DNA of 64,000 bases from Tolumonas osonensis (GTDB lineage Bacteria; Pseudomonadota; Gammaproteobacteria; Enterobacterales; Aeromonadaceae), in contig NZ_JACHGR010000007.1 of assembly GCF_014202415.1 (NCBI RefSeq), positions 124,001-188,000 on the forward strand, written 5' to 3'. The notes beneath the pieces are model-generated. The model did not search any database and was not told the DNA's origin. It saw nothing but the letters and a program-made list of their open reading frames with translations. Positions 216-14,034 of this stretch are shown here, in pieces. Numbering within the stretch: position 1 is the first letter of the stretch; every line of letters begins with the position of its first letter. The translations under genes were made by a program, and so were the position numbers.

Positions 216-767
216 ATGAATACACTGTTTTTTCTGCTGGATACTGTATTCAGCGTTTATCTGATGGTTGTCCTGTTACGCTTCTGGCTGCAATGGACCC
301 GGGCCGATTTTTACAACCCGATGAGCCAGTTCTGCGTAAAACTGACGCACCCGATCCTGACACCGCTGCGCCGGATTATTCCCGGCTTCCGCGGCATTGA
401 TTTTGCGTCGCTGCTGCTGGCCTATGTGGTCGCGGTATTAAAATTCGTGACTTTCATGCTGCTCGGGATCCTGAAAATCAACGTTACCGGTCTGCTGCTG
501 CTCAGTTTTCTGGTCGTTCTGAAACAGGCCGGCTCACTCTTGTTCTGGGTCCTGATCGCGCGGGCAATCCTGAGCTGGATCAGCCAGGGCCGCAGTTCGG
601 TGGAATATGTCCTCTATCAGCTGACCGAGCCACTGCTCAGCCCGATCCGTCGTTTTCTGCCGTCATTAGGCGGGCTGGATCTGTCTGTGCTGGTGCTGTT
701 CCTGATCCTGCAGGGTCTTAATTTCCTGATGCTGGATCTGGTCGGTCCGCTGTGGAATCAGCTCTGA
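216..767 (+). CDS. yggT: YggT family inner-membrane protein
   Basis: A 183-residue, very hydrophobic protein with two tandem YGGT repeats: roughly residues 1-90 and 95-183. Each repeat has a membrane segment, a P-x-x-P-x-R-R loop ([14 protein letters not shown] and [14 protein letters not shown]) and a second hydrophobic stretch. The molecular role is not settled in the family; it has been linked to osmotic stress and to division-site membrane organisation in other organisms. A TAAGGA Shine-Dalgarno sequence sits just before the ATG, overlapping the proC stop. The stop overlaps the start of yggU by one base (TGATG), so the pair is translationally coupled. Confidence 0.92.
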
Positions 768-1057: not shown

Positions 1058-1123
1058 TCCAATATGTGGTACTGAGCGGCTTCCGACGTTATCATGTCGC
1101 CGATCTGAATACGGAGTCTGAAT

Positions 1124-1714
1124 ATGGAAAAGGTAGTGCTTGCCACCGGCAATAAAAAGAAAGTTGAAGAGCTCAACGCCCTACTGGCCGGTATGGATTA
1201 CACGGTCGTCCCACAAAGTGAATTCAATGTCGAAAGCGTACCGGAAACAGGCACTACGTTTGTTGAGAATGCCATCATCAAAGCCCGTCATGCCGCCCGC
1301 ATTACCGGTCTGCCGGCGATTGCTGATGATTCAGGTATTGAAGTGGATGCGCTGTTGGGTCGTCCTGGCGTTTACTCTGCCCGTTATGCCGGGGAAGATG
1401 CATCCGACCAGGATAATCTGGAGAAACTGCTGGAAGAAATGAACGGCGTCCCGGCTGTGCTGCGTACTGCCCGTTACTGGTGTGTCCTGGTTTATATGCG
1501 CCACGCGGATGATCCGACCCCGATCATCTGTCAGGCCAGCTGGGAAGGCACACTGGCAACCGAGCCTGCAGGTGAAAACGGCTTTGGTTACGATCCGATC
1601 TTTAATGTACCAGATCTGGACTGCACCGCTGCAGAGTTAGACCCTGCCACCAAAAACAGTCTGAGCCATCGCGGTAAAGCGCTGGCGCAACTCGCCGAGG
1701 CGCTGCAAGAGTAA
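1124..1714 (+). CDS. rdgB: RdgB/HAM1 non-canonical purine NTP pyrophosphatase
   Basis: A 196-residue cytosolic pyrophosphatase that cleans the nucleotide pool by hydrolysing ITP, dITP and XTP to the monophosphates. The N-terminal substrate loop [13 protein letters not shown] (residues 4-16), the metal-binding [10 protein letters not shown] (about 68-77), [12 protein letters not shown] and the C-terminal SHRGKAL signature are all present. Length equals that of the E. coli enzyme. It follows yggU after 66 bases and is followed three bases later by hemW, so the two are probably one transcript. Confidence 0.96.
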
Positions 1715-1717
1715 TTT

Positions 1718-2863
1718 ATGCTGCAACTACCGCCACTGAGTCTGTATATCCATATTCCCTGGTGCGTACAGAAATGTCCGTACTGTGATTTCAACTCGCA
1801 TGCACTGAAACAGCAGGTGCCGGAAGCAGACTATGTGGCGGCCCTACTGGCCGACCTCGATGCTGATTTGATGTATGTGCAGGGCCGTCAACTGCAGAGC
1901 ATCTTTATCGGTGGCGGCACGCCCAGCCTGTTTTCAGCCGAAGCGATTAAATCCCTGCTGGACGGAGTGGCCGCCCGCGTCCCTTTTGCCGCTGACATCG
2001 AAATTACCATGGAAGCCAATCCCGGTACCGTAGAGGCTGGTCGCTTTGCCGGCTATCAGCAGGCCGGCGTCACCCGCATCAGCATCGGCGTACAGAGCTT
2101 CCAGCCGGAAAAACTGCAGCGTTTGGGGCGTATCCATGATCCGGCTCAGGCGATTGCCGCAGGTTTGCAGGCCAAACAAGCCGGACTGCGTAGCTTTAAT
2201 ATCGACCTGATGCACGGCTTGCCGGAACAAAGTGTCAGTGACGCTCTGTCTGATCTGCAGCAGGCCATTGATATCGCGCCGCCGCATCTTTCCTGGTATC
2301 AGCTGACCATCGAACCAAACACCGCGTTTGGTTCCCGTCCGCCGGTTCTGCCGGAAGACGAAACCCTGTGGGATATTCAGGAGCAGGGCCACCAGCTACT
2401 GTTGGCTGCCGGTTACCGCCAGTATGAGATCTCCGCCTATGCCAAACCGGGTTACGAATGCCGGCACAATCTCAATTACTGGCAATTTGGTGACTATCTC
2501 GGCATCGGCTGCGGCGCACACGGCAAAATCACGCTGCCAGCAGAAGATCGCATCATCCGCACCGCCAAAGTAAAACACCCGAAAGGTTACCTCGATCCGG
2601 CGCGGGCATTTTTAGACCGGAGCTGGGATGTGGACAATGAAGACCGTCCGTTTGAATATTTCATGAACCGGATGCGCCTGTTCCGGCCTATTCCTAAAGC
2701 CGAGTTTACTGCCCGGACCAATCTGCCTGCAGAAACGGTAGAACAGCTGTTTAAACGCGCCTATGAACAGGGATTGCTGGAGCAGACGGATACCGAGTGG
2801 CTGGTGACTGAGCTAGGGCACCGTTATCTGAATACGCTGCTGACGATGCTGATGGAAGACTGA
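1718..2863 (+). CDS. hemW: HemW-type radical SAM protein (heme chaperone)
   Basis: A 381-residue radical SAM protein related to coproporphyrinogen III oxidase HemN. The HemW branch binds heme and inserts it into client proteins rather than acting as the oxidase. The Fe-S cluster motif is C16-x3-C20-x2-C23 (PWCVQKCPYCDF), followed by GGGTPS (SAM binding), the EANPGT segment and a HemN C-terminal domain. The start is three bases after rdgB. Many databases still label this branch oxygen-independent coproporphyrinogen oxidase; the missing N-terminal HemN extension argues for HemW. A hairpin lies directly after the stop, facing trmB. Confidence 0.94.
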   Translation: MLQLPPLSLYIHIPWCVQKCPYCDFNSHALKQQVPEADYVAALLADLDADLMYVQGRQLQSIFIGGGTPSLFSAEAIKSLLDGVAARVPFAADIEITMEANPGTVEAGRFAGYQQAGVTRISIGVQSFQPEKLQRLGRIHDPAQAIAAGLQAKQAGLRSFNIDLMHGLPEQSVSDALSDLQQAIDIAPPHLSWYQLTIEPNTAFGSRPPVLPEDETLWDIQEQGHQLLLAAGYRQYEISAYAKPGYECRHNLNYWQFGDYLGIGCGAHGKITLPAEDRIIRTAKVKHPKGYLDPARAFLDRSWDVDNEDRPFEYFMNRMRLFRPIPKAEFTARTNLPAETVEQLFKRAYEQGLLEQTDTEWLVTELGHRYLNTLLTMLMED

Positions 2864-2869
2864 AACAAC

Positions 2870-2900
2870 AACGGCCTGTCTCTTCCGATAACAGGCCGTT
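2870..2900. terminator. Convergent terminator hairpin between hemW and trmB
   Basis: Perfect 10-bp inverted repeat AACGGCCTGT/ACAGGCCGTT with an 11-base loop, between the two convergent genes. On the minus strand it is followed by GTTGTTGTTTC, so it works best for trmB; the plus side has no clear U tract. Confidence 0.65.
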
Positions 2901-2927
2901 GATATCTGTGCAGGTCAGACTGGATGC

Positions 2928-3653
2928 TTAGCTTTTACGCGCAAACAGCAGATCCCACACGCCGTGGCCCAGACGATGGCCACGCTGTTCAAATTTGGTC
3001 AGCGGACGTGAATCCGGGCGCGGCGCATAGTCCCCTTCCACCGTATTCACAAACCCTTCTGCGGCGTTCATCACTTCCAGCATATGTTCCGCATAGTTTT
3101 CCCAGTCGGTTGCCATATGGAAGACGCCACCGATTTTCAGTTTCGGACGCAGCATCTGTACAAATGCCGGCTGTACGATACGGCGCTTGTGATGACGCGC
3201 TTTATGCCATGGATCCGGGAAGAACAACTGCAGCGTATCAATGCTTTCATCCGGGATCATCTGACCCAGCACTTCTACCGCATCATGGCAGAACAGACGC
3301 AGGTTGGTAATGCCGGCATCCTGCGCGGATGACAGGCAGGCGCCGACACCCGGACGATGCACTTCAATACCGATAAAGTTTTTCTCGGGCGCTGCGGCAG
3401 CCATCTCCACCAGCGATTTGCCCATGCCGAAACCGATCTCCAGAACCACCGGCGCTTCACGGCCAAACAGCTGCGCCAGATCCAGCATTTCATCGCGGAA
3501 TTCAACACCCATCACCGGCCATAATTCCTGCAATGCACGTTCCTGGCCTTTGGTCAGACGGCCTTCGCGACGGACAAAACTACGGATGCGGCGCATGAAT
3601 TTACCTTCTTCGGTAGTCTCTTCACCGACGTTCATTTCATTATGTTCGGTCAT
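2928..3653 (-). CDS. trmB: tRNA (guanine-N7-)-methyltransferase
   Basis: A 241-residue SAM-dependent enzyme that methylates G46 in the tRNA variable loop. Visible signatures are [14 protein letters not shown] near the N-terminus, the SAM-binding [24 protein letters not shown], the catalytic-region [15 protein letters not shown], and the C-terminal [18 protein letters not shown] prefer the ATG at 3653, which has GAGAGA as ribosome site, over a TTG four codons upstream. It is divergent from mutY, as in E. coli. Confidence 0.95.
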
Positions 3654-3685
3654 GGTGTCTCTCAATCAGTTAACAAGGCGTTGGC

Positions 3686-3713
3686 ATTATCCAGAGATAG
3701 CCCGAAGGCGCAA
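3686..3713 (-). promoter_or_regulatory. Probable sigma70 promoter of trmB
   Basis: On the minus strand, TTGCGC (3713-3708) and GATAAT (3691-3686) are 16 bases apart, and the -10 element is 33 bases upstream of the trmB ATG. Sequence match only. Confidence 0.4.
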
Positions 3714-3827
3714 GCACAAAGCCGTTATTCAGCACGATTTCCCCGGCTAAAGCCCTACTTTTTTTGCCGTTTACAGCCCACCCGCGCTGTGACAGCATGC
3801 AGGCTCAATCAGCAGAAGGTTTTTAGT

Positions 3828-4880
3828 TTGAATCAGGCTACTTTTTCTCAGCGTTTACTCGACTGGTATGACATCGCCGGACGCAAAACGCTGCCCTGGC
3901 AGCAAGACAAAACGCCCTACCGTGTCTGGGTGTCAGAAATCATGCTGCAACAGACCCAGGTCAGCACGGTCATCCCCTATTATGAACGCTTCATGGCGCG
4001 CTTTCCGGATGTTATTTCTCTGGCGGATGCCCCGCAGGACGAAGTGTTGCATCACTGGACTGGCCTTGGCTACTATGCCCGTGCCCGCAATCTGCACAAA
4101 GCGGCCCAAGTCATACGCGATCAATATGCCGGGCACTTTCCGGAAACGTTCGACCAGGTGGCCGAACTGCCCGGAATTGGCCGCTCGACAGCGGGTGCTA
4201 TTCTTTCACTGGCATTAAAGCAGCATCACGCCATTCTCGATGGCAACGTGAAACGGGTTCTGACCCGCTGGCTGGCGCTGGAAGGCTGGCCGGGGCAGAA
4301 ACAGATCGAAAACGAGTTATGGGACTGTGCCATCAGGCTGACACCGGCAGAACGGGTGGAGCATTACAATCAGGCGATGATGGATCTCGGCGCCAGCCTT
4401 TGCAGCCGCAGCAAACCGCAGTGCGCCATCTGCCCGATGCACGATGACTGTGGCGCCTATCTGCAAGGCACGCCTACCGCCTACCCGACGCCAAAACCGA
4501 ATAAAAAGCAGATACCGGTGAAACAGACCTGCCTGCTGATCATGCGCTGTAACGAAAGTGTCTGGCTACAGCAACGTCCGGCACAAGGCATCTGGGGCGG
4601 GTTATTCAGCTTTCCGGAGTTTACTTCCGCCAATGATGCTCAAAACTGGCTACAGCAGATTGGCTACCCCGGAACACCGATTAGCACCCTGACGGCATTC
4701 CGGCACACCTTCAGCCACTTTCATCTGGATATCACGCCATTGCTGGTAAGCCTGCCACACCCTGCTCACAGCATCATGGAGCAAACCAACGAACTTTGGT
4801 ATAACCTCAGACAACCATCCAGTGTTGGTCTGTCGGCTGTGACACTGAAATTACTGACTTATCCTGAACTGCAACAATAG
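3828..4880 (+). CDS. mutY: adenine DNA glycosylase
   Basis: A 350-residue base excision repair enzyme that removes adenine mispaired with 8-oxoguanine. It has the helix-hairpin-helix [12 protein letters not shown] followed by the catalytic-Asp segment [13 protein letters not shown], the [4Fe-4S] motif C-x6-C-x2-C-x5-C ([17 protein letters not shown]), and a C-terminal Nudix-like domain that reads 8-oxoG ([10 protein letters not shown]). The frame stays open upstream to 3642, but that extension is unlike the family. The TTG at 3828 has AGAAGG nine bases before it and gives exactly the E. coli length. yggX follows closely. Confidence 0.95.
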
Positions 4881-4891
4881 AGATGATTACT

Positions 4892-5167
4892 ATGACCCGA
4901 ATGGTTTTTTGTCAGCGCCTGAAAAAAGAAGCTCCCGGTATGGCTTTTCAACTCGTTCCGGGCGAACTGGGTAAACGCATTTTTGACAATATCTGTCAGG
5001 AAGCCTGGGCTGAATGGCAGAAAAAGCAAACCATGTTGATCAATGAAAAGAAACTCAACATGATGAACGCTGAACACCGCGCTTTATTACAGACAGAAAT
5101 GGAAAAATATCTGTTTGAAGATGGCGATGTGCAAATCGACGGTTATGTACCGCCGAGTGAAAAATAA
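4892..5167 (+). CDS. yggX: Fe(2+)-trafficking protein YggX
   Basis: A 91-residue protein of the YggX family, which protects Fe-S clusters from oxidation and is linked to iron handling. It has [12 protein letters not shown] with the conserved Cys near the N-terminus, [20 protein letters not shown], and the hallmark [19 protein letters not shown]. The start at 4892 (MTRMVFC) is preferred over the in-frame ATG at 4883 because family members begin close to the Cys; the choice is not certain. It lies about 11 bases after mutY, in the usual mutY-yggX pair; mltC, which often follows, is not present here. Confidence 0.93.
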
Positions 5168-5257
5168 GCATCGTGATTTCGAAAATCCTTCTTTTTTCTG
5201 GTTTTGTTCAGCAAAGCAGCAAACGAACTGAAAATCGGAGGGTTTCGGAAAAAAGCG

Positions 5258-5286
5258 TTGACTTGAAACCGCTTATTTTGTTTAAT
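5258..5286 (+). promoter_or_regulatory. Strong sigma70 promoter of the Phe-Thr-Phe tRNA operon
   Basis: TTGACT (5258-5263) and TTTAAT (5281-5286) are separated by exactly 17 bases. The -10 is followed by the GC-rich discriminator GCGCCCC (5287-5293), the hallmark of stable-RNA promoters under stringent (ppGpp) control. The first tRNA starts 11 bases after the -10 element. Confidence 0.85.
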
Positions 5287-5296
5287 GCGCCCCGTT

Positions 5297-5372
5297 GCCC
5301 AGATAGCTCAGTCGGTAGAGCAGCGGATTGAAAATCCGCGTGTCCGTGGTTCGATTCCGCGTCTGGGCACCA
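5297..5372 (+). tRNA. tRNA-Phe(GAA), copy 1
   Basis: 76 bases including an encoded CCA. Acceptor strands GCCCAGA/TCTGGGC pair, the D loop has AGCTCAGTCGGTAGAGC, the anticodon is GAA within GGATTGAAAATCC, and the T arm carries GGTTCGATTCC. Identical to the copy at 5506-5581. Confidence 0.98.
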
Positions 5373-5418
5373 TTATCTAAGTTAACTTGCTGCGGCGAGT
5401 TAAGTAACAAATTTGTGT

Positions 5419-5494
<76 letters not shown>

Positions 5495-5505
5495 TTCTTT
5501 TCTAA

Positions 5506-5581
5506 GCCCAGATAGCTCAGTCGGTAGAGCAGCGGATTGAAAATCCGCGTGTCCGTGGTTCGATTCCGCGTCTGGGCACCA
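5506..5581 (+). tRNA. tRNA-Phe(GAA), copy 2
   Basis: Base-for-base repeat of the first tRNA-Phe, including CCA, 11 bases after tRNA-Thr. Its 3' end is followed by the operon terminator at 5591. Confidence 0.98.
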
Positions 5582-5590
5582 TGATTACGA

Positions 5591-5619
5591 AAGCCTCACA
5601 TTACTGTGAGGCTTTTTCG
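5591..5619 (+). terminator. Rho-independent terminator of the tRNA operon
   Basis: Perfect stem AAGCCTCACA/TGTGAGGCTT with a four-base loop followed by TTTTTC. Its mirror image may also serve the sigma54 regulator gene that ends at 5649 on the other strand. Confidence 0.88.
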
Positions 5620-5648
5620 TTTCTGGCTTATGCACTTTCAGATGATGT

Positions 5649-7010
5649 TCAGGAAGGCAGCAGCTTGTACTTCTCCATCAGCCTGTACAGAGTTACCCGC
5701 GATATGCCGAGCTGACGAGCTGCAGCCATGACATTGTTACCATTGGATTGCAAGGCTCGTTGTGTCACCAGTTTATCAACTTCAGCCCTGGCTTCAGCCA
5801 GCGTAGTGCTCTGAATCAAAGGCTCAGAGCCCGGAGATTCAGAGTCCAGTTCTAAATCCTGCGGGCAAATGACCCGCTTTTCGCACATGACTAACGCTCT
5901 GGCTACCCGGTTTTTCAACTCACGGACATTGCCCGGCCAGTGATAGCTGCGCATCAGGTGTAATGCCGATGGACTGAAACTCCGCACCAGCGGATTGAGC
6001 CCAGCTCTCATGCTGCAAAGGAAATGGTTGGCCAGCAGTTCAACATCCTCTCCCCGCTCTCTGAGTGGCGGCAGTTCCAGATCCAGCACACAGAGACGAA
6101 AGAAAAGATCCTGCCGGAAACGTCCGGTCCGGATGTCTTCACGCAGATCCCGGTTGGTAGCGGAAATAACCCTGACATCGACCGGAATCACTTCAGATCC
6201 ACCAACCCGCGTTATCTTTTTCTCCTGCAGAAAACGCAGCAGATTGACCTGTAACTCCAGTGGCAAATCGCCAATTTCGTCCAGAAACAGGGTACCACCA
6301 TTAGCCTCTTCGATATGACCAATCCGGCGCCGGAAAGCACCGGTGAAAGAACCCTTCTCATGACCAAATAATTCAGACTGAATCAGGTTAGCCGGAATAG
6401 CGCCGCAATTCACCGCAATGAAAGGGCCGTTCCGGCGACATGAGCGCTGAAAAATGATGTGAGCAGCCAGTTCCTTGCCGGTGCCGCTCTCGCCCACCAG
6501 CATGACATATGAGTCAATAGACGCTATTTTTTCCAGTTGATGAAACACTCTCCGCATGGAAGGACTATTGCCAATCATACATCCCCGGCCTGTAGCGACC
6601 ATTCCGCAATGCAGAGGAGGCACAGACCGTAAACCAGCCATACCATAGGCATGCCCCAGGGAGGATAGTAACCGGGAATCATCTACTGGCAAGGTATGAT
6701 AGTCATACAGATATTTGGCCAGTAAATCGCAGACCGTTGATTGTGTCATCATGCCGGGAGGTACTAACCCAATCCATGCCATGTCACTACTGGTTTGTGC
6801 CAGCAATAACTCAATATCATGGTCAGCTTTCTCGTCTAAACCAAATTTATCGAGCAGAATAAGTCCGACAAGAGGATGCGTCCTCTTATACAGTTCCATT
6901 GCTTCATTTACAGTACACACCGGGCACGGCAGCCATCCTGCAGCAAGCGCCACTTCTGGCATATTCCACACCCCGGCGGTACGCAGACATATCAGCTCGC
7001 GTACGTCCAT
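5649..7010 (-). CDS. sigma54-dependent activator, VpsR-like
   Basis: A 453-residue enhancer-binding protein. Residues 1-120 form a degenerate receiver-like domain: no acidic pair near the N-terminus, though an Asp stands at 54 (ILLDKFG). Residues 145-380 are the AAA+ domain with Walker A GESGTGKE (173-180), the sigma54-contact loop GSFTGA (220-225) and Walker B LFLDEIG (241-247). Residues 425-453 are a Fis-type helix-turn-helix. The overall plan and N-terminal style resemble VpsR of Vibrio cholerae, a c-di-GMP-binding regulator of matrix genes. Unlike VpsR, the sigma54 loop is intact, so real sigma54 activation is expected. It is divergent from the secreted protein gene at 7597, which has a -24/-12 promoter. 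Resemblance to VpsR and c-di-GMP binding are inferences; the family call is firm. Confidence 0.85.
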
Positions 7011-7054
7011 GGGCAGCCACCTTGTTGCTACAACAGACCTTTTAATCCTCTTTA

Positions 7055-7069
7055 AGTATCGGAGATACT
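7055..7069. promoter_or_regulatory. Inverted repeat upstream of the sigma54 regulator
   Basis: Perfect AGTATC-GGA-GATACT, 45 bases upstream of the regulator's start. Possible operator for self-control; no known box matched. Confidence 0.3.
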
Positions 7070-7355
7070 CCCTTTATATGCCAGTTGTTACACGGGGGAT
7101 TTAACAAAAACCTTACACTTTCTGCTCTATCTCCCAAACAAGAGAGCACCATATAAATCCAGCCAAAATTCTTTATTTTTTATCTTTAAAATCAATTGAT
7201 TAAATTAGGCTCCGCACAGAACCAACGCGATAAAAATTCCGTGTATTACAGTGCAGATTCAAGTAACGCTATCAATTCCGGACGGTCAGGAACGATGTGT
7301 TTCATTTCTGATACAAGTCTGATTTTGGTTGTTTTATTTTTAAATTCAATAACTT

Positions 7356-7388
7356 ACAAAAAGACACCCATTAAATGTATCTTTTTGT
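7356..7388. promoter_or_regulatory. Candidate enhancer (UAS): long inverted repeat
   Basis: Twelve-base arms ACAAAAAGACAC and GTATCTTTTTGT, one mismatch, nine-base spacer. The centre lies about 110 bases upstream of the start point expected from the -24/-12 promoter at 7457, the usual distance for an enhancer bound by a sigma54 activator. No gene ends here, so it is not an obvious terminator. Confidence 0.45.
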
Positions 7389-7456
7389 TAACACACATGA
7401 AGAAAACATAGAGCTCAAAAGTAAACTTTCTCTTTATTTTCAACACCTTATCCATG

Positions 7457-7472
7457 TGGCCTGAAATTTGTA
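7457..7472 (+). promoter_or_regulatory. sigma54 (-24/-12) promoter of the secreted protein gene
   Basis: TGGCCTGAAATTTGTA compares with the consensus TGGCACG-N4-TTGCA: the GG doublet (7458-7459) and the -12 G (7470) are ten bases apart as required; the -12 C is a T. Transcription would start near 7482, giving a leader of about 115 bases. A sigma54 activator gene is divergent from it. Confidence 0.6.
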
Positions 7473-7485
7473 TAGCTATAAGGGC

Positions 7486-7558
7486 GCAAGACCCCCTGAC
7501 ATTCTCGCCGATAGGCACACAGGTAGTTGGTAGTTGATCGTGCTTCTGGCAAGACCCC
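7486..7558 (+). repeat. Ten-base direct repeat in the leader of the secreted protein gene
   Basis: GCAAGACCCC occurs at 7486-7495 and again at 7549-7558. Each copy sits in the loop and 3' arm of a small possible hairpin (GGG...CCC and CTGG...CCAG). Meaning unknown. Confidence 0.5.
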
Positions 7559-7567
7559 AGGGATTGG

Positions 7568-7583
7568 TTTCCATATATGGAAA
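7568..7583. promoter_or_regulatory. Perfect 16-base palindrome at the ribosome site
   Basis: TTTCCATATATGGAAA reads the same on both strands. It touches the AAAAAGGA ribosome site (7581-7588) of the gene at 7597, so it could be a protein operator or an RNA hairpin that hinders translation. Confidence 0.4.
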
Positions 7584-7596
7584 AAGGAATGCGATC

Positions 7597-9243
7597 ATGA
7601 AGATAAAATTTAATTACAAACCATGGCTCACGGCATTGTGTCTGGCAGGCGCAATGTTGGTGGCACCGGCATATGCCGGTGTGGCTAATAATGGTCTATT
7701 TGAACTTGATGCCAATCCTCAGGATGATAGTGGCGTGCCACTACCAGATGATTGGGCTACGCCACCCGATGCTGGCGATGCGCTGATATTCTCTGGAATT
7801 CTTGCAGATCCAGCGCCTCAAAGTATTTTTGATGGTGGTAAAAAAGACATTCAGGATGTCACTCAGTGGTCCTGGAAAAACGGTGCGGTACCAGATAAAG
7901 ATAATCTGACCAATGCCTATGCCGCCGCCTATAATGACAATGGTGATTTGGTTATCTATTTCGGTGCAGACCGATTCGCCAATACCGGTGATGCCTTCAT
8001 GGGCTTCTGGTTCTTCAAACAGAAAGTTAACGCTATGCCGGACGGTAGTTTCTCTGGTCATCACGTTGCCGGTGATACCTTGGTTCTGGTTGATTACCCC
8101 CAAGGGGCTAATGCAGTACCATACATTGCAGTTGTAGTCTGGGATACCACCTGTACCAAGGCAACGAGTAACAACCCATCACCCGGGGATTGCGCTGCAG
8201 CCAATCTGCGACTGAGAAGTGAAAGTAGCGGAGCTGTCTGTAGTTCTGGTCTTAACCAGTTGGCCTGTGCTACCACTAATCACAGTAATGTCGACTCACC
8301 ATGGCCGTATATGCCGAAATCAGGCTCAGCTAATGTCTTCCCTTATGAATCCTTCTTTGAGGGGGGCATAAACCTGACTCAACTTGTCGGCGGAAACGAT
8401 AACTGCTTCAGTAGTTTCATGGCTGAAAGCCGTTCTTCAAGTTCATTTACTGCGTCACTCAAGGACTTTGTGTTGGGTGATTTTGAACTTTGCGGTGTAT
8501 CCATCACTAAAACCTGTTCTGCTGGTGATGTAAACGCAGCTGAAAACGGTTTTGTCTATACCTTCAATGGTGTTGTCACCAATACAGGCTTCGGTACTCT
8601 GTATGACGTAACCGTGATTGATGACAACGGTACACCAGCTAATACAACTGACGATTTCACTATCCCTCTCGGGACAATATTGAAAGGAGCATCAGCTAAC
8701 TACAACGGTACATTTGAATCAACACTGAATCCGCCAACCAATGGTGTAACAGTAACAGCAGCATCTACTTCTGGTGGTGAAGCTACAATCACCGATACCG
8801 CAAGTGATCTGTGCCCAGGCGTCAATCGAGATCCGCGAATTGATGTTACCAAAGCCTGTTCAACCAGTGTGCTGAGTGAAAACGATAATCTCGTTATCAA
8901 GGTTGAATACAGTGGTCAGGTCTGTAACGGAACTGGTGGTTCATCCGGTTTACTGCCTATTTCTCTGAACAATGTGGTTGTTCAGGATGATGCAGGAACA
9001 CCTGGCGTTCCAGGTGATGACCCAGCGCCGATTTTGATTGGCACACTGGCAGCAGGAGCCTGCTCACCATACAGTGGTTCTTACTACCCAGCCAGTGCTA
9101 ACAGCCAGGTACCAGCTGAAATCAGCTTCAGTGATACTGTTACAGCAACAGGTGTTGCAGCACTTGGTTTCGGTACACCGGAAGATACGGCTACCGCGAC
9201 CTGCAGATTGTGCCCAACTTGCCCTGACTGCCCTACCCCTTAA
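7597..9243 (+). CDS. secreted DUF11-like repeat protein, function unknown
   Basis: A 548-residue exported protein. Residues 1-27 are a clear Sec signal peptide ending in APAYA. The next 280 residues are Gly/Asp/Asn-rich with several Cys. From about 305 to 535 there are two Ig-like, DUF11-type repeats, each opening with a V/I-T-K-x-C-S motif (ITKTCSAGD and VTKACSTSV) and containing acidic 'V.DDNGTP..TTDD' loops. It ends in a Cys/Pro tail (CRLCPTCPDCPTP) with no sorting tail, LPXTG or membrane anchor. The ATG at 7597 has AAAAAGGA as ribosome site and starts the signal peptide; the frame is open further upstream but that part is leader. I do not recognise a function: a surface or matrix protein is plausible given its sigma54 promoter and its neighbours. 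Confidence 0.7.
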   Translation: MKIKFNYKPWLTALCLAGAMLVAPAYAGVANNGLFELDANPQDDSGVPLPDDWATPPDAGDALIFSGILADPAPQSIFDGGKKDIQDVTQWSWKNGAVPDKDNLTNAYAAAYNDNGDLVIYFGADRFANTGDAFMGFWFFKQKVNAMPDGSFSGHHVAGDTLVLVDYPQGANAVPYIAVVVWDTTCTKATSNNPSPGDCAAANLRLRSESSGAVCSSGLNQLACATTNHSNVDSPWPYMPKSGSANVFPYESFFEGGINLTQLVGGNDNCFSSFMAESRSSSSFTASLKDFVLGDFELCGVSITKTCSAGDVNAAENGFVYTFNGVVTNTGFGTLYDVTVIDDNGTPANTTDDFTIPLGTILKGASANYNGTFESTLNPPTNGVTVTAASTSGGEATITDTASDLCPGVNRDPRIDVTKACSTSVLSENDNLVIKVEYSGQVCNGTGGSSGLLPISLNNVVVQDDAGTPGVPGDDPAPILIGTLAAGACSPYSGSYYPASANSQVPAEISFSDTVTATGVAALGFGTPEDTATATCRLCPTCPDCPTP

Positions 9244-9275
9244 GTCAGAGTAAGAATGAGACACGTATGAGAAGG

Positions 9276-9298
9276 CGGGCGATGTAAATCATCGCCCG
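9276..9298. terminator. Convergent terminator hairpin
   Basis: Perfect 9-bp stem CGGGCGATG/CATCGCCCG with a five-base loop between two convergent secreted-protein genes. No strong U tract on the plus side; the minus side runs into CGCCTTCTC. Confidence 0.6.
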
Positions 9299-9308
9299 TT
9301 ACCATTTG

Positions 9309-11396
9309 CTATTTACGGCCTTTGGTACTCGTAGATGAAGCCGCTACCAGACTAATATTAACAGTAGCCGTCGCTGTTGACTGACCATCTGAAATGCTAT
9401 AGCTAAAACTGTCACTCCCCTTAAAGCTCTTGGCCGGTACATAGTTGATTGAGCCATCAGTATTCAGACTCACACTTCCCTTGCTTCCCTGGCTAAATGA
9501 AACCACCCTGATAACACTGCCCTCAGGATCGTAGTCATTAGACAGCACAGGAATAGTGACTGCGCCTAGCGTTGTCATAGAGACATTGTCATTTATAGCA
9601 ACAGGAGCCAGATTAGCCTTGGCAACGGAGTAGCTGGTACTGGTTGTTGTAAGAGCACTGCCATTAGCTGCAGAAATATTAATTGTGTAACCACCTTCTA
9701 TAGCTGTAGATGCTGAAGTTACCGTCAAACGTGCCTTACCGGTAGTACCAGGACTGAGTTGCAGCGAAGCTGTATCAAAACTACCTGTCCAGCCACTTGG
9801 CACAACTGAAGATAAATCGATGGAAGCTGCAGGACATTGACTGCTATCCTGGTTGCTGACAGTTATGTCATAGCTAACACTGGTACCCGCAGCAACACTG
9901 CCACTCTGCAGCGGAGCAATACTCACAGCAGGTTTAGCCGGAATACATGTCTGTGAGCCGAAATTAACACTTATGCCGGCTGCAGAACCATCAGTCCAGT
10001 CAGCGGAGATAGTGACACCAGAAACAGGGTCGGTATAACTGCTACCCACAGGTAAAGCCGGATCTAACCAGTCGGTAAAACCATAAAGATCTCTGAACGG
10101 TGTAGCCAGGTTCATATGCAGCAAATTACTGCTGTTAGGTACATTGTCTTCAACCAGATGAATAACAACGCCGTTGGTCACATCCTTACGGTAAAGACGG
10201 TATGACCGTTTACTGAGAAAGCTATCGAAACCAACGGATTGACGGTACTCCACATAGAACCAGGTTTGGTTGCCTGTCAGCGGATTGATACCCCGGGGAA
10301 CCTTGATAGCCTTGGCTGCGTTGTCTGCGGTTTCATAAACGCCCACGACATAGTTACCATCTGCCGATACTGTTGTCACCGGAGTGGCGGCATTTTGTCC
10401 GAGCCAGCCTAATCGTGATTTCTGAAAGGCATTGAAATGCCCAAAATCCGGGTTTCCCATGGTGTCATAGCTATCACCATATTCAACCGTTGAACAAGTA
10501 TTGCCTAAAGTTTCTCCCTGGCAATCCAGCGCATGGGCATGATAAAGGCCGAAATTATGTCCCATTTCATGCGCAATATTGTCTGCTGTAAATTGACCAT
10601 TAATATAACTACGTGACGGCAGACCGCCGACAGTCGCCATACCGGAAACATTACAGGATGTCTGGGTGAACAGATAGACAATACGCGTATAAGAGGAAAG
10701 GTTGATGCCGGCAGCAGTCGCCGCCTGATCAGCCGCATTACCTGCCGCATACATATCGCAGACTGTGTTAGATAATGGTAGTGTAAACCACCCCTGTACA
10801 TCGCCAGCCAATGTGGTTTTCTGGTAGGAGTTTTCATAGAAGAAGTCACTGACCTGGCCAAAGATCAGCGAACGGGCCTGCTCAGTAGTCAGCGGTTGCT
10901 CCGTCGGGTTTTCCTGGAAGTTCGCCATCAATACCAGCGTGCGCTGTTCACCGGTGGTATTAGCCAGCACACCGGGTGTGCCACCATTACTTCCACCATC
11001 GGTAGTAGCCCCAGCAGCCAGAGTCAGGATACTGCCAGCATCCTGGTCGATACTGCCATCATCCTTTTGCGAGCCATGAACGCGAACTCTGGCGCCCGTA
11101 GCGATGGACGATGATACATTTTTTTGATTCAGATGCAGCTCATGGCGCTGGCCGTCATCAGTTACCAGAAAATGGCGTAACCGGGCGTGTTTATCAGCCC
11201 CGTCTTCATAAATCGCTTCATAGGTACCGTCTGTGACACTGTTCGCTACAGCGACATCATTACGAGACTCAGGCGCAGTCTGAGCAGAAACACTACCGAC
11301 ACTCAGCGCAATAGCAGACATCGCGGTCAGAATAAACCGAATGGCCCGTGCGGACAGGCCTGGGCTCTTGGCCGTAGAAGCCGGAACAGATCTCAT
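9309..11396 (-). CDS. secreted M11-type (gametolysin-like) metalloprotease
   Basis: A 695-residue exported protease. An N-terminal signal peptide ends near residue 39 (VGSVSA-Q), then a possible propeptide to about 150. The catalytic domain (about 150-460) has the metzincin zinc site HEMGHNFGLYH (276-286) and a Met-turn candidate YDTMGN. Residues about 485-600 form a NEW3-like Ig domain, and about 600-690 a cadherin-like 'APVAINDNVSM...VLSNDYDPEG' domain common in surface proteins of gammaproteobacteria. The tail is short and basic. It has no type I secretion repeats. The mRNA leader carries a c-di-GMP-I riboswitch, so the protease is tied to the sessile/motile switch. The substrate is unknown; the neighbouring secreted protein is one candidate. 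Confidence 0.85.
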   Translation of the reverse strand: MRSVPASTAKSPGLSARAIRFILTAMSAIALSVGSVSAQTAPESRNDVAVANSVTDGTYEAIYEDGADKHARLRHFLVTDDGQRHELHLNQKNVSSSIATGARVRVHGSQKDDGSIDQDAGSILTLAAGATTDGGSNGGTPGVLANTTGEQRTLVLMANFQENPTEQPLTTEQARSLIFGQVSDFFYENSYQKTTLAGDVQGWFTLPLSNTVCDMYAAGNAADQAATAAGINLSSYTRIVYLFTQTSCNVSGMATVGGLPSRSYINGQFTADNIAHEMGHNFGLYHAHALDCQGETLGNTCSTVEYGDSYDTMGNPDFGHFNAFQKSRLGWLGQNAATPVTTVSADGNYVVGVYETADNAAKAIKVPRGINPLTGNQTWFYVEYRQSVGFDSFLSKRSYRLYRKDVTNGVVIHLVEDNVPNSSNLLHMNLATPFRDLYGFTDWLDPALPVGSSYTDPVSGVTISADWTDGSAAGISVNFGSQTCIPAKPAVSIAPLQSGSVAAGTSVSYDITVSNQDSSQCPAASIDLSSVVPSGWTGSFDTASLQLSPGTTGKARLTVTSASTAIEGGYTINISAANGSALTTTSTSYSVAKANLAPVAINDNVSMTTLGAVTIPVLSNDYDPEGSVIRVVSFSQGSKGSVSLNTDGSINYVPAKSFKGSDSFSYSISDGQSTATATVNISLVAASSTSTKGRK

Positions 11397-11420
11397 TTTT
11401 TAGGTACCTTCAAGTAAAAA

Positions 11421-11557
11421 ATCTCGAAAGCGCCCAAAAAAGACGTCAGTACACAGCTCCTTCGGTAGCCCAGCTGTCCTGATGAGAATTCAAAAGGACC
11501 TGTGGCTTTGCGTACATCCGGTTACCCGGAGTTTGCCGTTTCGGGAGCGCTTTCGAT
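11421..11557 (-). ncRNA. cyclic di-GMP-I (GEMM) riboswitch
   Basis: Read on the minus strand, this leader holds the GEMM core in order: CGGCAAAC, a 5-bp stem UCCGG/CCGGA capped by the GNRA loop GUAA, then ACGCAAAGCC, a second hairpin (GGUCC...GGAC) and CAGCUGGGCUACCG. These are the conserved ligand-pocket segments of the c-di-GMP-I family. Flanking strands (11557-11543 and 11435-11421) form a closing helix of ten perfect pairs (TCGAAAGCGC/GCGCTTTCGA), directly followed by a run of U before the protease ribosome site. The closing helix plus U run could act as a terminator, which would make it an off switch; direction is inferred. Confidence 0.9.
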
Positions 11558-11700
11558 GGTGAACGGATCAAAATGCGACCCTCTCAGTTAGCATGACACC
11601 GCATCAAATGTGACCAACACAAACAACATGAGTGGCCATTCATGACGTCCGTATCATGCGAAATTGTGACGATGCTAACAAAGCTTTTGGGAAAGGGTAA

Positions 11701-11736
11701 AGGCAAAAAACGATCTTTTTTTAACCTGTTTTTGCC
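11701..11736 (-). terminator. Terminator of the YdjM-like gene
   Basis: On the minus strand AGGCAAAAAC pairs with GTTTTTTGCCT (one bulged base), seven bases after the stop of the gene at 11743. The stem is A/T-rich, so strength is uncertain. Confidence 0.5.
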
Positions 11737-11742
11737 TGAATT

Positions 11743-12354
11743 TTATAACTTATTGAATAATGAACTATACTTAAAAGTTAAGCTTCCGATAACCGGACCA
11801 ATTGTTTTTGCGTACAGTTCAACACAAATAGTGAATATAGGACCTGCCCGGCTCATCAGGTCGAACGAGGGGTAAAAATGAGTCAGGCCCTGTATGACGA
11901 TTGCGCCAACAAGCAGGTTAAATACCAGGTACTCACCCGCTCCCGCCACCTGCATACGTAACGGATTCAGACTGATCTTTTGTTTTAACGGCCAGAACAG
12001 GGCAACACCGTTAGTACCTATCAGCATATCTCCGATAATGTGACTGAAATAGCCAATACAGATTGCATCAGCCCAGGTATGCCATTGCGGAGAAGATGTC
12101 AGGACAGAATACAGCAGAATAACCGCGAGCAGACTGTGTGTAATAGTCCGGTGCCCCAGCATTGAATGTAATGGTTTACTTAGCAGCGGGATTAAACGAC
12201 CAAACGAGCTTTGGGGAGAGTCAAGATCGGGCTGTAACGCCCCCAGCATACTCAGAACACTCGCCGTAACTATGTTATCAACAGAACCTGGCACATAGGT
12301 ATCGACCATCAGCACACTGAATACTGCAAACGCCTGATGCGTCTTTGCCATCAT
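11743..12354 (-). CDS. YdjM/DUF457-like membrane-bound metal-dependent hydrolase
   Basis: A 203-residue inner-membrane protein of the YdjM (DUF457) family. Conserved polar residues lie in the expected order: H6 near the start, LQPDLDSP, GHRTITHS and GYFSHIIGDML, between several hydrophobic segments, followed by FWPL. The biochemical activity of the family is not established. In E. coli ydjM belongs to the SOS regulon; here a good LexA box lies about 20 bases upstream. The first two codons are both ATG and neither has a clear ribosome site. It stands alone between the riboswitch leader and a small unknown gene. Confidence 0.8.
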   Translation of the reverse strand: MMAKTHQAFAVFSVLMVDTYVPGSVDNIVTASVLSMLGALQPDLDSPQSSFGRLIPLLSKPLHSMLGHRTITHSLLAVILLYSVLTSSPQWHTWADAICIGYFSHIIGDMLIGTNGVALFWPLKQKISLNPLRMQVAGAGEYLVFNLLVGAIVIQGLTHFYPSFDLMSRAGPIFTICVELYAKTIGPVIGSLTFKYSSLFNKL

Positions 12355-12373
12355 AACAACTACAACTTAAATA

Positions 12374-12389
12374 ATGTATTTATATACAG
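12374..12389 (-). promoter_or_regulatory. LexA (SOS) box upstream of the YdjM-like gene
   Basis: On the minus strand CTGTATATAAATACAT matches CTGT-N8-ACAG with one change in the last base; the flanks also fit the extended E. coli consensus (17 of 20 positions by hand). It lies 20 bases upstream of a homologue of SOS gene ydjM, which supports it. Confidence 0.7.
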
Positions 12390-12456
12390 TTGTTTATAAT
12401 AACATTACTTCATCTCTGCGTCAGCTACCGCATTCTGAATGTGTTTCACCACGGTT

Positions 12457-12678
12457 TTAATCTTCCGGCTTTTGAATATCCTCGTTCCCGGACAGAACAC
12501 TTGCTTCTATTTCTTTAAAAATAATCCGGTATAACGCGCCGAAAGTATCCGGATCCGCTCCTTTCTCCGCCTCAGCTTCAAGACGTCGCAAAGCGTGTGT
12601 CGCATTTTCAGAGGTCTGGATAGAAATAAGATAATCAAGAGCGAGTCTTGCGATTTCCAGTTTGTCCAGATTAGACAT
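12457..12678 (-). CDS. small acidic protein, unknown
   Basis: A 73-residue, soluble, acidic, largely helical protein; I do not recognise a family. It has no signal peptide, membrane segment or Cys. The ATG at 12678 has GGGAG at good distance, better than an in-frame TTG two codons upstream. The size, helical pattern (LEIARLALDYL, THALRRLEAEAE) and the good ribosome site support a real gene. It is upstream of, and in the same direction as, the YdjM-like gene, but about 100 bases and a LexA box separate them. Confidence 0.5.
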   Translation of the reverse strand: MSNLDKLEIARLALDYLISIQTSENATHALRRLEAEAEKGADPDTFGALYRIIFKEIEASVLSGNEDIQKPED

Positions 12679-12877
12679 AACCAACTCCCGGATTACGAAT
12701 GATATCTATCCAAACTTTAGTCTTATCTGGTTAATAAATCACTATTTTTACTATTTCCGGATCTTTCCCCTCAGCCTGGATAGCTGCCATTCTGAAATAA
12801 CGTCAAATAAATCGTTTTTGTAACATTTATCAGATGAATTGACACACTTATGACAAATATCTCGTTATAAATTGCAG

Positions 12878-12886
12878 TGCTATAAT
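12878..12886 (+). promoter_or_regulatory. Extended -10 promoter of the lipoprotein gene
   Basis: TGC-TATAAT, a perfect -10 with the TG extension, about 105 bases upstream of the ATG at 12991. No good -35 at 17 bases. The rest of the 312-base gap 12679-12990 is A/T-rich and holds nothing else I can name. Confidence 0.5.
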
Positions 12887-12990
12887 TTGTAAGTCTCTGT
12901 CTTTTGTTTCTCTGATTACCACAGAAACGTAAAGTCAGGTTAAAATGAATCCTCTATTTATTAAAAAACCTCATACGGGAGTTATCAATA

Positions 12991-14034
12991 ATGAAATATC
13001 AATCTGGTTATGCATTTACTCTGCTGCTGTTGCTGGCTGGTTGCGGCGGTGGCGGCGGCTCATCCTCTGATTCAGGAACAACCCAGTTGAATCTGGCTGT
13101 TTCTGATGCGCCGGTTGATTCGGCACAGCAGGTTTGTATCGCTGTCAGTGGTCTGAGTCTGAAACAGGAAGGTGTGACCGATGAAAAAACATGGGGTCCA
13201 CTGAGCTTAATCGACACGGACGACAACGATGGATGTTTACCTGACGGCTATACCATTCCGACTGACGAAAATGGTCATCCGACGTTTTTCTATCTTGACC
13301 TGCTGCAATACCAGAACGGCGCTAAACATGCGCTGCTGAGCGGTGCGGTGATTCCTAGCGGTCACTATGAGCAGTTACGCTTACAGGTTGAAGATGGCCG
13401 CACCTCTTATCTCGACGTAACAACAGGGGCAGATCCTAAGTATCCTGCTTCATACGTTAAAGATGCAGACGGTAATATCCTGCCTTTAGAAGTACCTAGC
13501 AGCGAAGTTAAACTTCACTCCTTTACTGCACCGGTCGCAGGTGTACTGGATTATCAGGTGGAATTTAACCTGCGTCATGCCATGGTGTTGCCTGGTCATG
13601 AAACATATTACAAGCTGAAACCGAATGGTGTAGACCTGATTGATGTGGACGTACTGAGCACCATTTCAGGTACTGTCGATGCCACTAATACCGCCAACTG
13701 TAATGGCGACCTGAGCAAGGCGGGTGTGTATGCTTATAACAGCACCGCAGATGTCACAGCTCTTCAGGGCATTGATTACGACACAGACCATAACGGCCCT
13801 GTTCTCTCCACCCTGGTATCTCATGATGTGACAACCGACGTCTACAGCTATCAGATCAACTACGTTGAGGCTGGTTCTTATAAGCTGGCGTTAGTCTGTA
13901 ATGCGTCAGATGACTTCCTGACAGAAGCTGGCAATGCAAGCGGATATGCGCTTGTAGTGGCAGATCCGGTTAAAGATGTTCAGGTTCAGGATCCTGCAGT
14001 CAGCGGAACAACAACCGTCACTGAAAACTTCTAA
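12991..14034 (+). CDS. DUF4382-type lipoprotein
   Basis: A 347-residue lipoprotein. The signal peptide ends in the lipobox LLAG-C18, followed by a flexible Gly/Ser stretch (GGGGGSSSDSG) and no Asp at +2, so outer-membrane sorting is expected. Residues 32-220 match the DUF4382 pattern: LNLAVSDAPVDSAQQVCIAVSGLSL, then PSGHYEQLRLQV and a Leu-rich VEFNLRHAMVL segment. The rest is a carboxypeptidase-regulatory-like Ig fold (SGTVDATN...AGVYAY...YQINYVEAGSYKLALVC). The function of the family is unknown. GGGAG precedes the ATG, and a strong terminator follows the stop. Confidence 0.78.
   Translation: MKYQSGYAFTLLLLLAGCGGGGGSSSDSGTTQLNLAVSDAPVDSAQQVCIAVSGLSLKQEGVTDEKTWGPLSLIDTDDNDGCLPDGYTIPTDENGHPTFFYLDLLQYQNGAKHALLSGAVIPSGHYEQLRLQVEDGRTSYLDVTTGADPKYPASYVKDADGNILPLEVPSSEVKLHSFTAPVAGVLDYQVEFNLRHAMVLPGHETYYKLKPNGVDLIDVDVLSTISGTVDATNTANCNGDLSKAGVYAYNSTADVTALQGIDYDTDHNGPVLSTLVSHDVTTDVYSYQINYVEAGSYKLALVCNASDDFLTEAGNASGYALVVADPVKDVQVQDPAVSGTTTVTENF

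Follow-up and report, generated by a model that had tools for sequence, protein, structure and literature searches.

The window analyzed here, a 64,000-nucleotide stretch of Tolumonas osonensis DNA, carries two genes that converge with 65 nt between their open reading frames (ORFs). On the minus strand, 9309..11396 encodes a secreted-looking metalloprotease of 695 amino acids, whose leader contains a c-di-GMP-I (GEMM-I) aptamer at 11461..11547 (minus strand); the ATG of the protease ORF lies 64 nt downstream of the aptamer end. On the plus strand, orf569 (7597..9243) encodes the convergent partner; its earliest ORF start is a TTG at 7534, and the signal-like segment begins at the ATG at 7597. 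A gene for a VpsR-domain sigma-54-type regulator (5649..7010, minus strand; Pfam VpsR 50.5 bits and Sigma54_activat 233.3 bits) is divergent from orf569.

A c-di-GMP-I aptamer before a metalloprotease gene

The covariance model of c-di-GMP-I, RF01051, matched the minus strand at 11547-11461 over all 87 model positions with 58.1 bits, above the gathering score of 35 (E = 9.3e-9 for 64 kb, both strands), and the leader belongs to this family by score. An earlier note, made from the letters alone, had reported a GEMM aptamer in the protease leader and proposed this search, which bore the claim out; the motifs that it quoted are found in the minus-strand sequence. The interval that it gave, 11421-11557, does contain the aptamer, but the aptamer takes up only 87 nt of it, and the remainder consists of flanking bases relevant to the helices P0 and P1 described below. 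In a permissive scan of 9000-13000, the sister family RF03167 (c-di-GMP-I-GGC) was reported at the same site in place of RF01051, with 55.3 bits. Its cut-off of 59 was reached by L020, L021 and one of two matches in L110 (L numbers denote scanned loci), and the window aptamer, being below it, is not c-di-GMP-I-GGC by score.

The ligand-contact bases of c-di-GMP-I have been named as G20, A47 and C92 (PMC4744006, in excerpt), and all three are present in the window aptamer, as is A18. In the base numbering of V. cholerae Vc2, which we mapped onto the aptamer ourselves, G20 is at 11537 and C92 at 11465. Among 45 protease leaders, A18, A47 and C92 occur in 45 each and G20 in 43, the two exceptions, L011 (another Tolumonas) and L095 (Geobacteraceae), having A at position 20. 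We take such an A to be the mark of cGAMP-selective GEMM-Ib or of relaxed selectivity; the window has G and is not of this type. The nucleotide corresponding to position 20 guides selectivity in pilM, according to an excerpt of PMC9262584. Since G20 and the other contact bases are intact, c-di-GMP is the predicted ligand of the window aptamer, and its binding by the leader is, judged from sequence, very likely.

That the aptamer has decayed and lost its ability to bind ligand is very improbable. Its 58 bits are indeed fewer than the 71.7 and 69.9 bits of the other two copies in the genome, and the 11-nt tetraloop receptor is missing from P3, although P2 is capped by a GUAA loop; the contact bases are nonetheless intact, and the leader is almost the same as that of T. 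auensis although the gene behind it differs. The GNRA loop with its receptor is a common feature that we did not take as universal: a simple receptor pattern fits 1 of the 45 protease leaders, and the P2 loop is GUAA or GCAA in 27 and GAAA in 9. As judged by its aptamer, the riboswitch is an ordinary member of its class.

The genome holds three GEMM-I aptamers over the cut-off, the window copy and two others. One (G000:C4:190676-190760) precedes a GH68 levansucrase with a GH32 enzyme behind it; if levan metabolism is indeed controlled by c-di-GMP, this would be of interest in its own right. The other (G000:C2:13860-13951) precedes a hemerythrin-PAS-GGDEF-EAL protein and has A at position 20.

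The protease starts with a hydrophobic signal-like segment (the signal peptide was judged by eye), followed by a prodomain, the zinc site HEMGHNFGLYH, NEW3 and Big_9 domains and a basic KGRK tail. The zinc site fits HExxHxxGxxH, and Pfam M11 (PF05548) matched with 39.6 bits (cut-off 21), which places the protein in M11. The M6 model TIGR03296 gave a sequence score of 46.4 bits, under its cut-off of 110.8. A sequence search of solved structures returned mainly matches to the Ig-like tail and weak metzincin matches. The AlphaFold model (pLDDT 77.0), however, aligned with the zymogen of the M6 peptidase InhA2 with Z 22.7 (rmsd 3.0, 310 aligned residues, 17% identity, model residues 63-481), compared with Z about 10 for the other metzincins listed. 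By its predicted fold the protease thus resembles family M6 (InhA2), beside M11 by Pfam. A secreted metzincin with Ig/cadherin-like tails, as had been described, agrees with the Pfam matches to M11, NEW3 and Big_9; its designation as gametolysin-type stands as a sequence-level label, because the predicted structure fits InhA2 far better than the other listed metzincins.

The protein was matched in 48 of 100 relatives at E <= 0.001, many solely via the C-terminal domain, and a near-full-length protease match was found in 5 of 10 same-genus genomes. When 15 loci were scanned, GEMM preceded the protease in all six Tolumonas homologues (own genome included), in none of seven from genus g2 and in both from family f16, there as RF03167. 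A further scan of named genomes covered 79 loci, the best 79 of at least 553 relatives, some sharing one genome and some repeating loci of the 15-locus scan; its search model drew on 32 aptamers, of which seven came from protease leaders not among the 79 loci. GEMM was found before the protease in 38 of these best 79 loci, in several phyla, including Pseudomonas, Marinobacterium, Shewanella, Ferrimonas, Aromatoleum, Desulfobacteraceae, Geobacteraceae and two Rokubacteria. Extra matches precede a second, divergent protease (L110, 2319-2217) and, in L095, the partner gene. GEMM was not found before the protease in the other 41 of the best 79, and 14 of these, compared with all of Rfam, had no c-di-GMP riboswitch over its cut-off, class II included.

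When 84 catalytic domains were placed on a tree, 16 changes of the GEMM label were required, of which well-supported branches force 11, suggesting that the switch was gained or lost often. The tree was built without the duplicates L012, L013, L015, L017, L018 and L019 and without L119, L134, L141 and L145, in which HExxHxxGxxH was not matched. The counts are not independent, since leaders and loci share ancestry and several come from one genome. Even so, a GEMM occupies the corresponding position upstream of orthologous as well as distantly homologous proteases, an association beyond chance, and this comparative evidence makes the proposed riboswitch control of the protease gene likely.

Expression platform and direction of switching

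The closing helix P1 of RF01051 is present in the window, where GCUCC (11544..11548) pairs with GGAGC (11456..11460), as seen in sequence, enforced folding and covariation; these and the following elements are all on the minus strand. A further helix, P0, encloses the aptamer and P1. Its 5' strand, CGAAAGCGCUC (11545..11555), has bases in common with the P1 5' strand and pairs with GGGCGCUUUCG (11425..11435), and on duplex energies and pair counts we propose P0 as an antisequestor. The CUUUCG part of the P0 3' strand can alternatively pair with the ribosome-binding site: the Shine-Dalgarno sequence GAAGG is at 11407..11411, and 11414-11407 can pair with 11430-11423. A UUUUUU run (11416..11421), a possible transcription terminator, follows P0.

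The 45 protease leaders, a set without the matches L095 5233 and L110 2217 and without L012, whose aptamer is identical to that of L010, gave a mean energy of -18.0 kcal/mol for the duplex between 5' flank and downstream region, compared with -9.7 when the downstream bases were shuffled. At most 5 of 100 shuffles were as good in 38 of the 45, versus none of 30 other GEMM leaders, for which a fixed 46-nt downstream stretch was used (mean -7.9 kcal/mol; genes behind them identified for 2 of 30). Seven protease leaders (L135, L128, L096, L139, L107, L095 and L123) failed this test. When flanks were paired with the downstream regions of other leaders, energies within and across groups were -18.4 and -9.4 to -10.3 for CGAAAGC flanks, -17.7 and -11.1 to -16.8 for GAUCCUC flanks, and -17.0 and -13.8 to -15.1 for GAAAGCUCCUC flanks; eight ungrouped flanks showed no discrimination.

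In an alignment of 39 leaders (near-copies L077 and L089 removed), 77.3% of P0/P1 cells were paired versus 45.5-52.2% in slid versions. Changes on both sides were seen in 11 of 14 P0/P1 pairs, a number reached by 4 of 500 shuffles, and the covariation score was reached by 0 of 500; the cells changed on both sides number 25, fewer than in two slid versions (30 and 44). In P1, 89.3% of cells were paired, and for five of six pairs at least one leader had both bases changed. A single structure does not suit the two length groups, and P0 was therefore only 68.3% paired; once offsets were allowed for each group, paired cells numbered 375 of 420 in P0 and 209 of 234 in P1. The 5' strands of P0 and P1 overlap in 40 of 41 P0-type leaders, a set from which L135, L128, L096 and L095 were left out after their lack of P0 was seen. 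The P0 platform, common to 38 of the 45 protease leaders and not detected in the 30 control GEMM leaders, appears new within the literature searched.

Folding predicted P0 in all 41 P0-type leaders at a stage at which the ribosome-binding site has yet to be transcribed, with a mean probability of 0.93 with or without bound aptamer; at full length, this became 0.20 free and 0.10 bound. When the aptamer and P1 were enforced, 32 of the 41 leaders showed a rise of over 1 kcal/mol in the cost of opening the site and two a fall of over 1, the mean change being +2.7 kcal/mol and that of the window a small +1.3. When P1 was not enforced, 7 of 45 leaders were ON-like, 14 OFF-like and 24 neither. Because the P1-enforced folding points to OFF while the unenforced folding is undecided, we favor, as somewhat probable, a translational OFF switch at high c-di-GMP. 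At low c-di-GMP, the 5' flank would pair with the anti-Shine-Dalgarno strand to form P0, leaving the ribosome-binding site free, and the protease would be made. At high c-di-GMP, the ligand would fix P1, which takes bases needed by P0, and the anti-Shine-Dalgarno strand, thereby freed, would pair with the ribosome-binding site and turn the protease OFF.

The opposite sign is rather unlikely. Ligand-stabilized P1 could anchor the nascent P0 and slow its replacement by the ribosome-binding-site hairpin, so that the protease would be ON at high c-di-GMP and would mature a matrix protein during biofilm growth. Without ligand, the Shine-Dalgarno site is mostly buried in the predicted fold of the full-length RNA (mean unpaired 0.16, 45 leaders; exceptions include L096 and L122), which suits an ON switch or a kinetic switch, and since P0 forms first and the site is then buried, a default OFF state with a ligand-stabilized ON state is conceivable. 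The two class I switches of V. cholerae are described as responding in opposing directions (PMC6366702, in excerpt). On the other hand, nearly all P0-type leaders have P0 and P1 competing for shared bases, P1 enforcement mostly makes the site harder to open, and the class I switch over ZmpI in C. difficile is OFF (PMC6200980, in excerpt).

Control mainly by transcription termination, with P0 and the U-run forming an intrinsic terminator that encloses the aptamer, is improbable. A U-run does stand a few bases after P0 in several leaders (6 U in the window; 7 in T. auensis, L011, L071 and L118; 5 in Ferrimonas L074; UUUUAUU in L008 and L010), and because it follows P0 in the window, termination may contribute. 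Nevertheless, only 8 of 39 leaders have a run of at least five U within 14 nt after P0 and 31 have none, and an enclosed loop of more than 100 nt is, to our knowledge, unlike known terminators. The UUUUUU run was not listed by a terminator scan that considers loops of 3-8 only, and terminator and promoter scans of 9000-12500 gave no more matches than in shuffles.

The convergent partner and joint divergence of the gene pair

The orf569 protein is secreted-looking and all-beta in its AlphaFold model (pLDDT 82.9), with a C-terminal CRLCPTCPDCPTP tail and a weak DUF7507-like repeat (Pfam 18.3 bits, below the cut-off of 27). For both this model and that of the protease, the Foldseek TM-scores are too low to name a fold. 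RbmA was listed by Foldseek for orf569, yet also for the protease tail, and we discounted this similarity because a common beta-sandwich explains it. The 5' region of orf569 (7485..7596, plus strand) has two copies of GCAAGACCCC, is retained in T. auensis and occurs once in the genome. An Rfam scan of this region gave only three weak matches, to unrelated families, and it may be an undescribed structured leader.

We clustered the ORFs of 85 loci, namely the 79 named loci (the best 79 of at least 553), the window and five other Tolumonas loci. A convergent partner was present at most two genes downstream of the protease in 66 of these 85, 53 partners being of the orf569 type and 13 of a second repeat-protein family that was kept separate from orf569. 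Among the 19 loci without a partner, eight had no ORF before the locus end and two had a protease that our script did not recognize. The convergent gene order recurs across phyla. In the same set, the partner was found in 32 of 44 loci with GEMM versus 34 of 41 without; as it is as frequent without the switch as with it, switch and gene pair are separable. In two genomes of genus g4, orf569 is accompanied by the second repeat protein and the regulator, and the 18 kb read there contained neither a protease of this kind nor a GEMM. When 21 orf569-type proteins were aligned, invariant residues appeared in the N-terminal half.

A C-terminal CxLC-like cysteine motif was seen in 36 of the 67 members of the orf569 cluster, some of them truncated. 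Genes for ExeA-like ATPase, secretin-like and DsbA-like proteins (names given by eye) recur beside the module in several of the loci L067-L145, which belong to the best 79 of at least 553, and may help to export the Cys-containing partner and to form its disulphides. Homologues of the VpsR-domain regulator were found in 26 of the 85 loci, again including the best 79 of at least 553, and it is possible that the regulator controls the protease-orf569 pair; a sigma-54 activator that binds c-di-GMP, BerB, is known (PMC5552954, in excerpt). A sigma-54 promoter before the partner was considered and rejected: a relaxed -24/-12 pattern was found in 9 of 66 upstream regions, with 2.7 expected from shuffles, and was absent in the window.

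Because a convergent secreted-looking protein recurs beside the protease, orf569 is a named candidate for the surface or matrix proteins that the earlier note had supposed to be cut. We give its being the protease substrate a chance a little short of even. The secreted protease would then cut the orf569 repeat protein, a surface or matrix component, and a fall in c-di-GMP would lead to its release or remodelling. For the whole explanation, a translational OFF switch over an M6/M11-type protease acting on orf569, we see the chances as evenly balanced.

In L095, on a Geobacteraceae contig, GEMM-like aptamers precede both genes (5311-5233, minus strand, and 661-737, plus strand). The match before orf569 has 58.8 bits (E = 6.2e-12) and that before the protease 48.7 bits (E = 4.8e-9), both under the RF03167 cut-off of 59. 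In the aptamer preceding orf569, the pair adjacent to position 20 shows a compensated change, and the aptamer preceding the protease has A at position 20 itself.

Compared with T. auensis, the window has 85% DNA identity over 1066-7664 and 83% over 11347-12705, and nothing between. The block 7664..11347, which borders near the start of both coding regions, gave no blastn alignment (E 1e-8) with T. auensis or with the four other Tolumonas loci compared. Protein identity to T. auensis is 91% for the regulator, 89% for the ydjM product and 71% for a DUF4382 protein further out, and 44% for the protease and 38% for orf569. The sequences leading into the protease gene and orf569 hardly differ from those of T. 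auensis, barring a 22-nt gap upstream of the aptamer. In the tree, the window protease clusters with Vibrio and Pseudoalteromonas proteases (support 100/89), separate from four other Tolumonas proteases (100/100). Those four loci are similar among themselves (protease 69-92%, partner 61-94%, regulator 72-95% identity), and fast divergence is therefore not the rule. Taken together, these sequence comparisons suggest an apparent joint exchange of the two coding regions in the window strain, with both 5' leaders retained.

Protease and orf569 distances correlate with r 0.54 over 53 pairs (from the set that includes the best 79 of at least 553), the highest of 1000 permutations being 0.14. Given the linked regulator, the partial r is 0.49 over 18 loci, a value equalled by 1 of 2000 permutations, with relatedness controlled in part. 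Three tRNA genes lie near the window module (5297-5578), and tRNA genes were also seen within a few kb of the module in 8 of 14 GEMM-less loci scanned (L067, L068, L069, L084, L087, L091, L098 and L121, with L068 and L084 overlapping), which suggests a recurrent integration or exchange site.

These tRNA genes would suit a reading that we consider rather unlikely, namely that the protease is an ordinary secreted nutritional enzyme and orf569 a functionally unlinked neighbor kept by whole-island transfer. The two genus g4 genomes with orf569 and no such protease nearby, and the partial control of relatedness, are also consistent with it. It is at odds with the convergent order repeated across phyla, with distances of the two proteins that correlate beyond the linked regulator, and with the GEMM-like matches before both genes in L095, even though both are under the RF03167 cut-off.

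Comparison with known c-di-GMP systems

According to an excerpt of PMC6366702, c-di-GMP riboswitches have been validated only in a small subset of cases. The comparison made here yields a testable expression platform with a predicted sign and a candidate substrate adjoining the enzyme, as well as a natural experiment offered by sister species, whose protease and partner differ jointly behind two regulatory leaders that are kept. At sequence level, it suggests that c-di-GMP, the signal to settle or leave, often controls an enzyme paired with one large secreted protein, possibly its target. We tentatively suggest a widespread undescribed c-di-GMP module, in which an antisequestor riboswitch, a secreted metalloprotease and a dedicated convergent substrate would co-evolve as matched allele pairs exchanged as one cassette behind retained 5' leaders. 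If this is right, many environmental bacteria would leave biofilms through RNA control of a dedicated protease, and the module would perhaps also serve matrix self-recognition. In the titles and abstract beginnings searched, a riboswitch-controlled protease was found only in C. difficile, and an earlier mention of GEMM before such proteases is possible; within this literature the platform, the gene association and the jointly diverged pair appear new.

The aptamer shares sequence, structure, ligand-contact bases and 5' leader position with c-di-GMP-I (GEMM-I, RF01051) and its variant RF03167, and differs in its GUAA P2 loop without receptor and in the P0 that encloses it. With InhA2-type M6 peptidases the protease has the predicted catalytic fold in common, in contrast to the 17% identity, the Pfam M11 match and the NEW3 and Big_9 tail.

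In LapG/LapA-type systems, a cysteine protease is held by a c-di-GMP receptor protein. There, as proposed here, c-di-GMP decides the release of a surface protein by a protease, whereas in the window RNA would control the synthesis of a metalloprotease. A relative of these systems is described in Desulfovibrio (PMC13090378, in excerpt).

V. cholerae Vc2 would, if the OFF reading is right, share translational control and P1 as the switching element, a likeness drawn from the kind of control and not from a comparison of expression platforms. Its downstream gene differs from the protease. Vc2 is called a translational OFF switch governed by P1 in an excerpt of PMC9262584.

The closest arrangement is that of C. 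difficile, in which the protease ZmpI/PPEP-1 is under the class I switch Cdi-1-12 and cuts surface proteins under class II switches (PMC6200980 and PMC6366702, both in excerpt). In both systems, a secreted zinc protease that acts on a surface protein (a candidate target here) is preceded by a c-di-GMP-I switch, a likeness of arrangement and not one of compared protein families. C. difficile is Gram-positive, and its class I switches act by termination (PMC6366702, in excerpt), unlike the translational platform and convergent partner proposed here. Both genes are under c-di-GMP riboswitches in C. difficile; in the window an aptamer was seen before the protease only, and the GEMM-like matches before both genes in L095 are under the RF03167 cut-off. 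If the module is real, it would give Gram-negative bacteria an RNA-controlled equivalent of the protease-adhesin switch of C. difficile.
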